From: Treponema sp.
Lineage (GTDB): Bacteria; Spirochaetota; Spirochaetia; Treponematales; Treponemataceae
NCBI GenBank assembly: GCA_017613485.1
Contig: JAGADS010000063.1
Span: 1 to 30,041, forward strand
Reading direction: 5' to 3'
Length of the DNA stretch: 30,041 bases
This document shows, piece after piece, positions 10,937 to 27,930 of the stretch; the stretch's first letter is position 1, and every line of letters begins with the position of its first letter. Under the pieces are notes generated by a model. That model saw only the letters and a program-made list of their open reading frames with translations, had not been told where the DNA came from and made no database searches. A program made the position numbers and the translations under genes.

Positions 10937-11152
10937 TTATATCATCTCATATCCGGCTTCTTTGATTGCGGCGGCAAAAACCTCATCGGGAATGTCCTTT
11001 GTAAGCTTTACGAGAACTTCTTTTTTCTCATGGTCAGCGTTTGCCTCTGTTACTCCGTCGATTGCCTCAAGTGCTTTCTTTACATGCATCTCACAGTGCT
11101 GGCACATCATGCCCTCTACCCTTAATGTTTTTTCTGCCATATTTTCCTCCTT
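10937..11152 (-). other. internal in-frame RBS and ATG: possible separate CopZ chaperone
   Basis: Within copA, AAGGAGG (minus strand, 11152-11146) lies five bases before an in-frame ATG at 11140-11138. The product would be 67 residues, [20 protein letters not shown] onward, which is the exact size and layout of a stand-alone CopZ copper chaperone with a CxxC metal site. No stop codon separates it from the ATPase. Either it is simply a fused domain, or one gene makes both the fusion and free CopZ by internal initiation. The Shine-Dalgarno is stronger than that of copA itself. Confidence 0.55.
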
Positions 11153-13480
11153 GGGTTCTGCGACAGTATCCTGCATTATTTTGGTCAGGTCTATACTTGA
11201 TTTAACTTTTTTATCATGCCGTGGATTTTGAATGTCGACCAGATTCAGCCTGAGTGCATTTGTAACCACGCAAAAACTTGAAAGGCTCATTGCGGCAGCG
11301 GAAAGCATGGGATTTATAACGATTCCCAAGCTGGAAAGTGCACCTGCGGCAACCGGTATCAAAATGACATTGTAGAAGAATGCCCAGAAAAGATTCTGAT
11401 GAATTATCCTTAATGTTGCACGGCTCAACCTTATGGCGGCACTTACATCAGTCAGGCGGCTTTTGCTCAAGACTAGCGAGGCTGCATCTATGGCAACATC
11501 GGTTCCTGCTCCAACTGCTATGCCTATGTCACTTGATGCAAGAGATGGTGCGTCGTTTATTCCGTCACCAACCATTGCAGTTTTTCCTATTGAACTCAGT
11601 TTTTTTATGATATCGGCTTTCCCGTCAGGCATGAGGGATGATGCGGTAAAATCAACTCCACTCTGTAATGCAACGGCAGATGCTGTCCTTTTGTTGTCGC
11701 CTGTGAGCATTACGGTTTTTATTCCCATTCCACCAAGCTCTTTTATTGCACGAGGACTTTCTTCCCTTATGGCATCAGAAACTGATATGATTCCAAGCAT
11801 TTTATCTTCCGTACAGAATAAAAGTGCTGTCTGTCCCAAATCAGAGTATTTTCTTACCTCATCTTTTATTTCTTCCTCAACATTGCAGACTGATGAAATA
11901 TAATCATAGCTTCCACCGTAGACTTTTTTTCCGTTCACGATGGCACTAATTCCTTTTCCTGTTTCCGCCTTAAAATGCTCTGCCTCCAGGGGAACAATGT
12001 TTTTTCCTGATGCATGATTCATGACGGCAAGGGCAAGGGGATGCTCGCTTTTTGATTCCAGGGATGCAGCTGAAACCAGCAGTTCCTCTTCGCTTACGGA
12101 CGGTGAAGTGTGGATTTTGCATACTGTCGGTTTTCCGCTTGTAATGGTTCCGGTTTTATCCATTGCAACAATCTTAATACGGGCACATTCCTCAAGTGAC
12201 TCAGCAGTTTTAAATAATATTCCGTTCCTTGCACCCTTACCTGTTCCGACCATTATGGCAACCGGTGTAGCAAGGCCCAGTGCACATGGACATGAAATTA
12301 CAAGAACAGAAATTGCCCTGGATAGAGAGAATCCTATTTCCTTTCCAAGAATCATCCAGATTACAAAGACTACGACAGCTGTCCCGATTACAAGGGGAAC
12401 AAATATTCCGCTGACTTTATCCGCTGTTTTTGCAATCGGGGCTTTTCCAGACGATGCATCTGAGACCATCTGTATTATTTTGGAAAACGATGTTTCTTCT
12501 CCCACGCTTGTTGCCCTGCACCTCAGGAAACCTGTTGTATTCATCGTGGCACAAAACACCCTGCTTCCCTGAGCCTTGTCAACCGGCATGCTTTCTCCTG
12601 TAAGGGCACTTTCGTCAACGGCACTTTCTCCGTCAATCACAATACCGTCCACAGGAATCTTTTCTCCAGGCCTGACTAGAAATACATCATCAACAGAGAC
12701 TTCCTCTACCATTACAGCCTGCTCTTTTCCGTCACGTTCAATTACCGCAGTCTTTGGGGAAAGCTTTAACAGGCCCTTTAGTGCATCCGTTGTCCTTTCT
12801 TTTGAAACTGACTCAAGAAGCTTACCGACGGTTATGAGGGTTACAATCATTGAGGCCCCCTCAAAATAAAGGTTATCCATGCACTTCATAACCTCTGCAT
12901 GATTTCCAAGTGCATCCTGATAAATCATTACAAAGACAATGCAGAGGCTGTAAAGATATGAAACACCTGAACCAAGGGCAACAAGAGTGTCCATGTTGGG
13001 AGAGCGGTGGATAAGAGCCTTAAATCCATTTGTAAAGAATTTTCTGTTTATGAGAAGTATTATCTGGCAAAGAAGAAGCTCCAGGAGTGCTGTTGAGACA
13101 TGACTTTTTGTAAAGAATTCAGGCAGCGGAAAAGACCACATCATGTGCCCCATGCTTACATACATCAAGGCAAGCAGAAATACAATCGAGGAAACAAGCC
13201 GCCTTGCCAAAACAGGAGTCATCACATCTTTTAAAAGGTCTTCTTTTTGTGTAATGGATGTTGTTTTTTTTGAATTATCATTCCCCAGGATTCTGGCACC
13301 GTAACCTGCTTTCTCAACTGCGGAAATAATCTCACCGCTTGAGGCACTTCCCTCTACCCTCATTGAATTTGTCAATAGATTCACCTGACATGAGGAAACA
13401 CCTTCTACAGAAGAAACTGCCTTTTCTACCCTTGTACTGCATGCGGCACAAGTCATTCCTGTGACGGCAAACTGTTCCAT
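10937..13480 (-). CDS. copA: Cu(I)-exporting P1B-type ATPase with fused C-terminal HMA domain
   Basis: This copper efflux pump has, counting from the ATG at 13480 (847 residues), an N-terminal heavy-metal domain GMTCAAC (Cys11, Cys14), the actuator TGES (294-297), the intramembrane [11 protein letters not shown] (Cys397, Cys399), the phosphorylated aspartate in DKTGT (Asp441), GDGIND, and the Cu(I)-type late-helix residues FFYN and MSLSS. After the last membrane helix and a charged linker there is a second HMA domain (about 781-847, MMCQHC), which most CopA proteins lack at this end. I chose the ATG over the TTG at 13489 because AGGAG at 13492-13496 is only two bases from the TTG. csoR lies just upstream, so copper-dependent expression is expected. 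Confidence 0.93.
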
Positions 13481-13494
13481 ATAAGACAAATCTC

Positions 13495-13797
13495 CTAGCG
13501 CATCATTTTCTGCAGTGTCCAGATGAGTTCCTCGATAATCTCCGTGTCTCCCTTTTTAAGTTTCTGAGTTACGCAAGTCCTCAAGTGCTCGTTCAAAAGT
13601 TCCCTGTTGAATGCCTGCAATGCTGATGTGGCTGCGGATACCTGCATCAGAATATCCGTGCAATATGCTCCTTTTTCCACCATACCGCGGATTCCCTTAA
13701 TCTGACCTTCCACACGATTCAGGCGTACTGTAAGGTCATGTATCATTTCCTCAGAGCGCTGAACTGTTCTATGCACATGTTCCTTTTCCTGCTGCAT
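13495..13797 (-). CDS. csoR: CsoR-family copper-sensing repressor
   Basis: This 100-residue all-helical repressor belongs to the CsoR/RcnR (DUF156) family. The Cu(I)-type ligand set is present: Cys in GAYCTDIL (about residue 46), then His and Cys in LLNEHLRTC (about 71 and 75). The family signature [12 protein letters not shown] is at about 25-36. Family knowledge says apo-CsoR represses and Cu(I) releases it. The stop codon TAG runs into the copA ribosome binding site, so the two genes form an operon. Ribosome binding site GGAGG lies a few bases before the ATG. A promoter and a matching operator candidate lie upstream. Confidence 0.92.
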
Positions 13798-21623: not shown

Positions 21624-22856
21624 CTATTCTCCGAGACACTTATCAAGGTCTGCGGCTATTGCTTTCTTGTCAAGGTTACGTCCTATGATGCAGAGCTTAA
21701 TCATGCGGTCACCGACTTTCTCATCCCATTCATCCTTGATCTGGGGATTTTCCTTGAGGATCTGCTCCCTTTCGACTGCGGGGGCGGCTGCAATCCACTG
21801 TCCGCTGTAACCTGCCTGAATCTGCCTTCCTGATGTCTCAAACACCCATGCCATATCAGGCTCATCCTCAAACCACATGAGGCCCTTGCACCTGATTATG
21901 TTGCGAGGCCATTTGTCTGCATACTGGTCAAGCTTCTGGCGGTCAAAAGGCTTTCTCCTGTAATAGATGAATGTGCCTATTCCATACTCATCCTCTGACT
22001 CACCCTCGTGCCTGTGCTCATGATGGTGGTGATGATGCTCATGCTCATCGAGGTCATCATCGTCATGGTGGTGCTCATGGTCGTGGTCATCATCGTGATC
22101 GTGGTGATGCTCATGCTCATGTTCATGTTCATGCTCGTCGAGATCATCATCCTCGTCAACTTCGCCTTCCTCAAGCTTCTTGCACCAGCCTGCGCTTGCA
22201 TAGACTGTCTCAAAATCGAATGAGCCTGTTGAAAGTATCTGACCTACATCAACCTTTCCATGGTCTGTCTCAAAAATCTTTACGCCTGGGTGAAGGGCAT
22301 CGATTACCTTGCAGACTTTCTTGAACTGATCCTCTGTGACAAGGTCCTTTTTATTGATTACAAGAGTTGAGCAGAATTCAATCTGCTGAACAAGAAGGGA
22401 TTCAATATCCTCTTCTCCACGGTCTTCCTTTAAAAGTGAATCTCCGCCTGCAAATTCATCAACAAGGCGTGCGGCATCAACAACACCGACAACATTGTCC
22501 ACATAGGCATTCTTTATGAGCATGAGCTCCTGTGCAATGGGCATTGGCTCGCATACACCGGAAGCCTCAATCATGATATAGTCAAATTTCTTTGTCTTTA
22601 CCAGATTCTCGATATTCTGTGCCATCTCGGATTTAAGGGTGCAGCAGATACATCCGTTTGTAAGGGGAACGATGCTTGACGTGTCTGTGATTTTTGCACC
22701 GTCCGCAATCAATTTTGCGTCTACGTTTACCTCCCCGATATCATTAACAATGACGGCCACCTTATAGCCGCTCTGATTGTTCAAGACCTGATTCAAAAGA
22801 GTCGTCTTTCCGGCTCCCAGATAACCGCACAAAAGAGTAATTGGAACTTTGTTCAT
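21624..22856 (-). CDS. COG0523 (CobW-like) GTPase with His-rich metal-binding insert
   Basis: This 410-residue G3E-family GTPase is a putative metallochaperone. Visible motifs are Walker A GYLGAGKTT (11-19), the family metal site CICC (Cys69, Cys71, Cys72), IEASG (switch II region, 96-100) and the guanine-specificity NKKD (168-171). Residues 231-290 form a His/Asp/Glu-rich insert with about 22 histidines, then comes the C-terminal CobW_C domain (about 293-405). The insert suggests Zn (or Ni/Co) storage or transfer. No cobalamin genes are nearby, so a zinc or other metal role is more likely than CobW itself. Ribosome binding site AGAGG precedes the ATG. No Zur-type site was recognised upstream. 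Confidence 0.9.
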   Translation of the reverse strand: MNKVPITLLCGYLGAGKTTLLNQVLNNQSGYKVAVIVNDIGEVNVDAKLIADGAKITDTSSIVPLTNGCICCTLKSEMAQNIENLVKTKKFDYIMIEASGVCEPMPIAQELMLIKNAYVDNVVGVVDAARLVDEFAGGDSLLKEDRGEEDIESLLVQQIEFCSTLVINKKDLVTEDQFKKVCKVIDALHPGVKIFETDHGKVDVGQILSTGSFDFETVYASAGWCKKLEEGEVDEDDDLDEHEHEHEHEHHHDHDDDHDHEHHHDDDDLDEHEHHHHHHEHRHEGESEDEYGIGTFIYYRRKPFDRQKLDQYADKWPRNIIRCKGLMWFEDEPDMAWVFETSGRQIQAGYSGQWIAAAPAVEREQILKENPQIKDEWDEKVGDRMIKLCIIGRNLDKKAIAADLDKCLGE

Positions 22857-27377: not shown

Positions 27378-27410
27378 TATACTATGATAGATTAACTATC
27401 TTGTTGGAGG
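27378..27410 (+). promoter_or_regulatory. promoter and inverted repeat before the toxin-antitoxin-like pair
   Basis: A -10-like TATACT (27378-27383) is followed by GATAG-attaa-CTATC (27386-27400) and the ribosome binding site TTGGAGG (27404-27410). The inverted repeat sits at the expected transcript start and could be an autoregulatory operator. No clear -35 is visible. Confidence 0.4.
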
Positions 27411-27415
27411 ATATT

Positions 27416-27697
27416 GTGAATTTTTCTTTTTCTGGACATGTTTTTAAAAGAATGGCAGAACGAAGTTTTGCACCAGAAACTATAAAATCAGTCATAGAAA
27501 ATGGAATTGTTATCAAAGATTATCCTGAAGACACACCTTATCCAAGCAGACTTATTTTGGGATTTGATGGGAACCGTCCAGTTCACGTAGTTTCTGCATA
27601 CAACCCTGAAAATGATACTGAATATGTAATTACAGTCTATGAGCCGGATTCACAAAAATGGTCCGATAATTTTACGGAAAGGAGATATATGAAATGA
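27416..27697 (+). CDS. DUF4258 protein, probable toxin of a TA-like pair
   Basis: This 93-residue protein starts at GTG 27416, five bases after a strong TTGGAGG; the frame is open to a TTG at 27401, but that start would have no ribosome binding site. The DUF4258 pattern is clear: SGHVFKRMAERSF, IENGIVIKDYPEDTPYPSRL, GRPVHVV-like NRPVHVVSAY and YVITVYEPD. The fold is believed to be related to RelE/MqsR-type RNase toxins. The next gene, overlapping by four bases, encodes a YgiT-type zinc-finger protein, the usual partner. Codon use is more AT-rich than in the neighbours, in keeping with a mobile cassette. Toxic activity is inferred from family context only. Confidence 0.85.
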   Translation: MNFSFSGHVFKRMAERSFAPETIKSVIENGIVIKDYPEDTPYPSRLILGFDGNRPVHVVSAYNPENDTEYVITVYEPDSQKWSDNFTERRYMK

Positions 27698-27930
27698 ATT
27701 GTCCTATTTGTAGATTTGGAGAAATGAAAGATGGTTTTACCCAAGTCGTTTTGACTAGAGGCAATGCAACTGTAATATTCCGTAATGTCCCTGCGCAAAT
27801 TTGTGATGATTGCGGGGAATATTATTTAGCCGAAGAAATCGCAAAAGATATTTACAATAGAGCAGAATATTGTTTTACCTCAGGTCAAGAAGTTGCAATT
27901 ATCGAATATAAGCAACTTATTTCTGCATAG
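27694..27930 (+). CDS. YgiT-type zinc-finger protein, probable antitoxin
   Basis: This 78-residue protein has two CxxC pairs (CPIC at residues 3-6 and CDDC at about 37-40) forming the YgiT/MqsA N-terminal zinc finger, with TRGNATVIFRNVPAQICDDCGEYYL in between in family style. It lacks the C-terminal Xre-type helix-turn-helix of MqsA, ending instead in a short helix (about 44-78). That short form is common beside DUF4258 genes. It overlaps the toxin-like gene by four bases (ATGA). Whether it binds DNA at the upstream inverted repeat is open. Confidence 0.85.
   Translation: MNCPICRFGEMKDGFTQVVLTRGNATVIFRNVPAQICDDCGEYYLAEEIAKDIYNRAEYCFTSGQEVAIIEYKQLISA

Follow-up and report, generated by a model that had tools for sequence, protein, structure and literature searches.

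The window, a stretch of 30,041 nucleotides from Treponema sp., encodes a Cu(I)-exporting ATPase, CopA, and a csoR-like repressor on the same strand (Table 1). The two genes probably belong to the same operon, and copA is likewise preceded by a metal-sensing repressor gene in Roseburia 831b, R. albus 7, and B. fibrisolvens D1. The ATG at 13480 is more likely to be the true start of copA than the TTG from which its length is counted in Table 1. Profile searches gave the domain order of the protein as an N-terminal HMA domain (GMTCAAC), a P1B ATPase core, and a C-terminal HMA domain (GMMCQHC). In Pfam, CopA matched PF00122 (E1-E2 ATPase) and PF00702 (HAD hydrolase), and the copper-type subfamily model TIGR01511 scored 566.3 bits against a cut-off of 397, which identifies the protein as a Cu(I)-exporting P1B-1 ATPase.

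Table 1. Features of the copA locus (positions are those of the window)
Feature	Position	Strand	Remarks
csoR-like metal-sensing repressor (Trns_repr_metal)	13495..13797	-	just 5' of copA
copA, Cu(I)-exporting P1B-type ATPase	10937..13489	-	850 aa counted from TTG
nested copZ frame	10937..11140	-	67 aa + stop, in the copA frame
nested ATG	11138..11140	-	at the domain boundary; conserved
internal Shine-Dalgarno (SD), AAGGAGG	11146..11152	-	5 nt 5' of the nested ATG; duplex -11.2 kcal/mol
charged linker, last membrane helix to C-terminal HMA domain (approximate)	11141..11220	-	carries the SD; length varies among relatives

The first-pass annotation had described the last 67 codons of copA as a domain the size of CopZ, preceded in frame by AAGGAGG-5-ATG, and the minus-strand coordinates bear this out. 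The spacer between the SD and the nested ATG is AAAAT (11145-11141, minus strand), and the nested frame runs open to the stop codon of copA itself, the TAA at 10939-10937. The anti-SD duplex energy was -11.2 kcal/mol for the nested ATG, compared to -7.3 kcal/mol for the likely ATG of copA at 13480 and -9.3 kcal/mol for that of csoR.

A search of the window for the string AAGGAGG-N4-8-ATG gave one match, exactly at the nested start. Shuffled windows contained a mean of 0.42 such strings, and 30 of 100 shuffles had one or more. The string in the window therefore proves nothing by itself, and its significance rests on comparison. In the 80 nt around the window's nested ATG, the RNA was as structured as in shuffled sequences (z = 0.03).

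Taken alone, the 67 residues of the nested frame aligned with positions 1-62 of the 62-position Pfam HMA profile (PF00403, 62.3 bits) and thus make up a complete domain. Their best match in NCBIfam was a CopZ model, NF047957, at 63.9 bits and under its curated cut-off of 85; chaper_CopZ_Bs gave 54.4 bits against a cut-off of 91, so no curated CopZ cut-off was reached. The fold was predicted with a pLDDT of 94.7, and the best PDB match of the model was CopZ (6ff2, TM 0.90 over 67 columns), although such a match cannot alone separate a chaperone from a pump domain because the HMA domains of ATPases share the fold. Among the best 80 of 584 loci and the window, CxHC was present in the C-terminal domain of all 81 proteins compared to the N-terminal domain of 0 of 80, and the nested products had predicted lengths of 65-74 aa in all 61 genes with an SD of -7 kcal/mol or stronger. 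The tail domain of CopA is chaperone-like, and the nested 67-aa polypeptide is predicted to be a free, soluble, Cu(I)-carrying protein. A C-terminal metal-binding domain is also shared with CopA of Archaeoglobus fulgidus, a P1B ATPase that is described in this way by a title in the reference list of PMC7558416.

We compared the boundary between pump and tail in two sets of genes. Set A was obtained by a CopA protein scan with one genome per species and consists of the best 80 of 584 confirmed loci plus the window (81 genes); a C-terminal HMA domain was present in 80 of these 80 loci. An ATG lying 8-16 codons ahead of the first cysteine was taken as a boundary ATG, and an anti-SD duplex of -8 kcal/mol or lower as a strong SD. 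In this set of the best 80 of 584 loci and the window, 69 of the 81 fused copA genes had a boundary ATG, and 58 of these 69 had a strong SD. Of the 2090 remaining ATGs that lie in frame inside these genes, which served as controls, 23 had one. Strong SDs were seen at 8 of the 164 control ATGs in which at least three of the five upstream residues were charged or polar (E, K, R, D, Q, N) and at 24 of 75 of copA's own starts. With a plain 5-mer SD string as the measure, 63 of the 69 boundary ATGs scored, compared to 62 of the 2090 controls. Counting against this reading, a boundary ATG was missing from 12 of the 81 genes and the SD was weaker than -7 kcal/mol at 7 of the 69. Thinning the same set to <70% identity left 10 genes, all 10 with the ATG and nine with a strong SD. 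The p-values of such comparisons are too small since the sequences are related and come mostly from draft metagenome assemblies.

Loss of the SD in close relatives, which the first-pass annotation named as an outcome that would speak against a nested start, is not what we found: the two closest relatives among the best 80 of 584 loci, L001 and L002, have SDs of -10.6 and -12.5 kcal/mol. The SDs of R. albus 7 and Subdoligranulum variabile are also strong (-11.1 and -10.9), and values of -10.7 and -8.0 were obtained for Pseudoflavonifractor phocaeensis An858 and Evtepia gabavorous, respectively. Weak SDs (-5.6 and -5.9) precede the nested ATG in the copies on plasmids of Roseburia 831b and B. 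fibrisolvens D1. When the internal start was mapped as a label onto a tree of the 81 rows (best 80 of 584 loci plus the window), it required 8 changes; losses or gains of the start have therefore recurred.

Set B was drawn from the treponeme family to which the genome of L001 belongs. Matches were found in 76 of the 118 genomes searched, giving 79 rows. The boundary was examined in 66 tail domains, and three were then removed: L196, which is a separate gene, and L141 and L158, which come from the same genomes as L001 and L015. The remaining 63 include L152 and L180, which sit in frames cut by contig ends, and the other 13 rows consist of short frames, fragments at contig edges, and HMA proteins of other kinds. 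A boundary ATG was present in 62 of the 63 and a strong SD in 57. For 48 of the genes a long stretch of upstream sequence was available, and 7 of the 635 control ATGs in these were strong.

One possible explanation for these observations is chance: the charged linker, of the form KEE-x-M, would be kept as a peptide and its codons would happen to resemble an SD. Conservation of the peptide alone should leave it with the synonymous codon usage of the rest of the gene, and the codons in the SD slot differ. Lys-Glu was spelled AAG-GAG in 41 of 42 cases in the slot compared to 50 of 238 elsewhere in those genes, and for set B the counts were 28 of 30 in the slot and 4 of 136 elsewhere (48 genes with long upstream sequence). 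Synonymous draws in the slot led us to expect 22.7 strong SDs at the 69 boundary ATGs of the best 80 of 584 loci and the window, while 58 were observed. Other dipeptides in the slot (E-E, T-E, M-E, and Q-E) mostly spell the same SD, and K-G or E-R do so in other phases. On the other hand, the SD lies in a single codon phase in 112 of 119 genes and in other phases in 7 (L196, L141, and L158 left out), from which we conclude that the peptide or common descent also contributes; this, and a match in the window that is itself within chance, is what speaks for coincidence. In view of how sharply Lys-Glu codon use departs from that of the gene body, we find coincidence barely credible.

Another possibility is that the SD-like run slows the ribosome while the last membrane helix is inserted or the tail folds, and that the ATG next to it is incidental. 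Such a role for intragenic SD-like runs has been proposed, although it is contested. However, the distance between the SD and the ATG had a standard deviation of only 1.6 nt (62 genes from the best 80 of 584 loci plus the window) whereas that between the TM8 motif and the SD ranged from 35 to 182 nt with a standard deviation of 28 nt (61 genes from the same loci). Since the first spacing is nearly fixed and the second is variable, the SD goes with the start codon rather than with the helix. The ATG is kept, moreover, and the RNA near it folds more weakly than expected. In 62 genes of set A (best 80 of 584 loci), the mean folding energy at the nested ATG was -2.39 kcal/mol per 50 nt compared to -11.92 in the gene body, and it was weaker than the synonymous expectation in 52 of the 62; copA's own starts, with a mean of -4.42 kcal/mol (n = 75), were on average more structured than the nested ATG. 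Pausing is thus highly improbable as the reason for the conserved SD. Judged by these sequence comparisons, the internal start is in frame, is equipped with an SD, and is conserved under selection, and these are the sequence features expected of an in-frame nested gene.

The first-pass annotation had offered, next to internal initiation, a recent copA-copZ fusion that retained old start signals. As a relic, the fused gene would have arisen by loss of the copA stop codon, the start signals of the former copZ would not yet have decayed, and only the fused pump would be made. Unfused neighbouring copA and copZ genes, the latter preceded by an SD, do occur in the same family. The existence of such separate genes in related treponemes, a point that the earlier annotation had raised, is documented by five treponeme-family loci (L219, L221, L225, L227, and L229), in which copA and copZ are adjacent and an SD lies 5' of copZ. 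These loci encode the same two proteins in the same order, copZ having its own SD, but they do so in two frames separated by a stop or joined by an ATGA overlap (the latter in 2 of the 5), whereas the window has one fused frame. The pairs were drawn from 12 larger regions, the other seven of which showed a small HMA frame with no visible ATPase, an HMA protein of a different type, or the edge of a contig. On a 133-row tree with an arbitrary root, the five pairs grouped together with a support of 90.

However, the fused form with its internal start is found in the Treponemataceae, the Sphaerochaetaceae, and several families of Bacillota, which are two phyla, and this distribution does not support a recent origin of the fusion. 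Over such a span unselected signals would have decayed, yet the synonymous sites remain pinned to AAG-GAG. In addition, in L035 and L055, the two genes that are followed immediately by a separate copZ with an SD of its own, the fused tail lacks an internal start. These data make a fusion relic very unlikely.

The genomes of set A were also searched for separate small HMA proteins. We scored 16 of the 80 genomes as lacking a usable nested start, 12 of them for want of a boundary ATG and four for a poor SD (L046, L066, L070, and L077); L005, L041, and L061, whose SDs range from -5.6 to -5.9, were kept among the 64 counted as having one. Among these best 80 of 584 loci, 12 of the 16 genomes without a usable start encoded a separate small HMA protein of the CopZ or CGMC type compared to 19 of the 64 with one (Fisher p = 0.0014), the two classes having been joined after the data were seen. 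Separate CopZ-type proteins alone were found in 3 of 16 compared to 2 of 64 (p = 0.05), with HMA search thresholds that were unequal (E 1e-4 for the 16; mostly 1e-6 for the others, with nine at 1e-3), and the CGMC type alone in 9 of 16 compared to 18 of 64 (p = 0.04), with a single threshold across all 80 genomes. The 60 short HMA frames inspected were sorted by eye, 'DCANC' and membrane-anchored types were set aside, and the genomes are mostly related drafts. These counts are no more than suggestive of separate small HMA proteins being commoner where the nested start is unusable. A free nested product would fit the observation that a separate CopZ-type gene was present in just 2 of the 64 sampled nested-start genomes.

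Individual genomes differed in what accompanied a missing or poor nested start. Those of L066 and L070, whose nested SDs are poor, each carry another fused copA, in which the nested SD is strong (-9.0 and -11.8, respectively), and that of L050 has a second fused copA with a weak nested SD (-5.9). A separate CopZ is encoded elsewhere in the genome of L077. For L011, L014, L017, L027, L029, L042, L064, and L068, only a small HMA protein of the CGMC type was found, and for L046 and L048 the genome search for small HMA proteins found neither a separate CopZ nor the CGMC type.

The CGMC type (for example, L103:220-474) is a small HMA protein, an 84-aa type with the motif GMMCGMCEAH and a basic tail. 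It was found in 27 of the 80 genomes at 56 bits or above, in frames of up to 169 aa, and was commoner where copA lacks a good nested start. It is possibly another type of free chaperone.

A free CopZ could also be made from a separate short transcript begun inside copA, with the SD and ATG serving that transcript. For E. coli, differential transcript formation is named in the title of Drees et al. 2017, as given in the reference list of PMC7558416. In the window, a scan for one promoter type revealed no minus-strand sigma-70-like site between 13290 and 11140, and hence none in the 3' part of copA; the nearest upstream is at 13317-13290. Translation from the copA mRNA is therefore the simplest source of free CopZ, and we consider a separate transcript unlikely.

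It is very probable, from the comparative evidence, that copA is a dual-product gene that yields both the pump and, through internal initiation, a free chaperone, the latter as a predicted product. Internal initiation, which the first-pass annotation had put forward as giving pump and chaperone from one gene, is supported by the retention of the start through divergence, by the synonymous bias toward spelling the SD, and by the way the SD tracks the ATG as the linker varies in length. Initiation at the 5' start of copA would produce the full pump, with the chaperone-like domain tethered to it as a C-terminus in the cytosol. A second, independent initiation event at the internal SD and ATG would produce a free CopZ of about 67 aa, and this protein may take up Cu(I) and pass it on either to the pump or to the repressor CsoR. 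The sequences show the anatomy of the gene and, among relatives, selection on the internal start in its SD, ATG, codon choice, and weak local RNA structure; that the free protein is made, how much of it there is, and that it acts as a chaperone are inferred.

Separate copA and copZ genes are usual in bacteria, according to PMC10187127. In PMC9548414, PMC5009743, and PMC10187127, the copA gene of E. coli is described as yielding the pump together with a small copper chaperone by -1 frameshifting. There, as stated in PMC5009743, the chaperone derives from the 5' segment of the gene, whereas in the copA of the window the chaperone-type domain is C-terminal and the proposed mechanism is internal initiation. 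Second in-frame products of a single gene are described for Cas11b inside cas8b (PMC11899642) and for two-polypeptide endolysins and the short form of SpaO (PMC9430671 and PMC13059759). These belong to other protein families, and their short forms act in a complex; unlike them, the nested product of the window would diffuse as a metal carrier and serve the pump from whose gene it comes. We found no published account of a nested start in copA in the literature searched, from which most subscription journals are missing.

These comparisons point, with good though not full confidence, to self-supplying copper pumps that are widespread in gut and rumen Treponemataceae and Clostridia, in which one gene would provide the pump with its chaperone in tethered form and also, through an internal start under selection, the same chaperone in free form. 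The arrangement seems to have been exchanged with separate copZ genes, and it would be a second solution to obtaining pump and chaperone from one copA gene, mechanistically unrelated to that of E. coli. If this is true, unrelated phyla have reached the same outcome as E. coli by a different mechanism that acts at the other end of copA, which would suggest selection for joint production. It would also add a small protein to many genomes. In the annotation of Roseburia 831b, R. albus 7, and B. fibrisolvens D1, only the ATPase is listed at this place, although the plasmid gene table is incomplete and two of the three have a weak SD. The tethered and free forms of one chaperone would make a clean system for asking what free CopZ does, and the comparison of codon choice within a dipeptide to that in the rest of the gene is a test that can be reused to find further nested starts.

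Several other HMA proteins were noted during the searches. L116 (G027:C62:68690-68863) is a 'DCAN' HMA frame with an in-frame TGA at the position of its relatives' second cysteine and might be a selenoprotein or a decayed gene. An in-frame TGA also occurs in the fused tail HMA domain of L068, from a Ruminococcus draft genome, as a result of assembly error or decay. L088 and L089, from two treponeme drafts, are HMA-like proteins of 69 aa that lack the CxxC cysteines. Directly 5' of copA, L077:3986-5284 and L174 (in the genome of L066) are 433-aa frames with an N-terminal GMHCPHC HMA domain.

Two further loci in the window drew our attention. At 21624-22856 on the minus strand lies a gene for a CobW-type GTPase that contains a long run rich in His, Asp, and Glu and is perhaps a GTPase of the metal chaperone kind. 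At 27401-27930, a DUF4258 protein is followed, with a 4-base overlap, by a short MqsA-like protein whose MqsA match is under the cut-off, and the two resemble a toxin-antitoxin pair.
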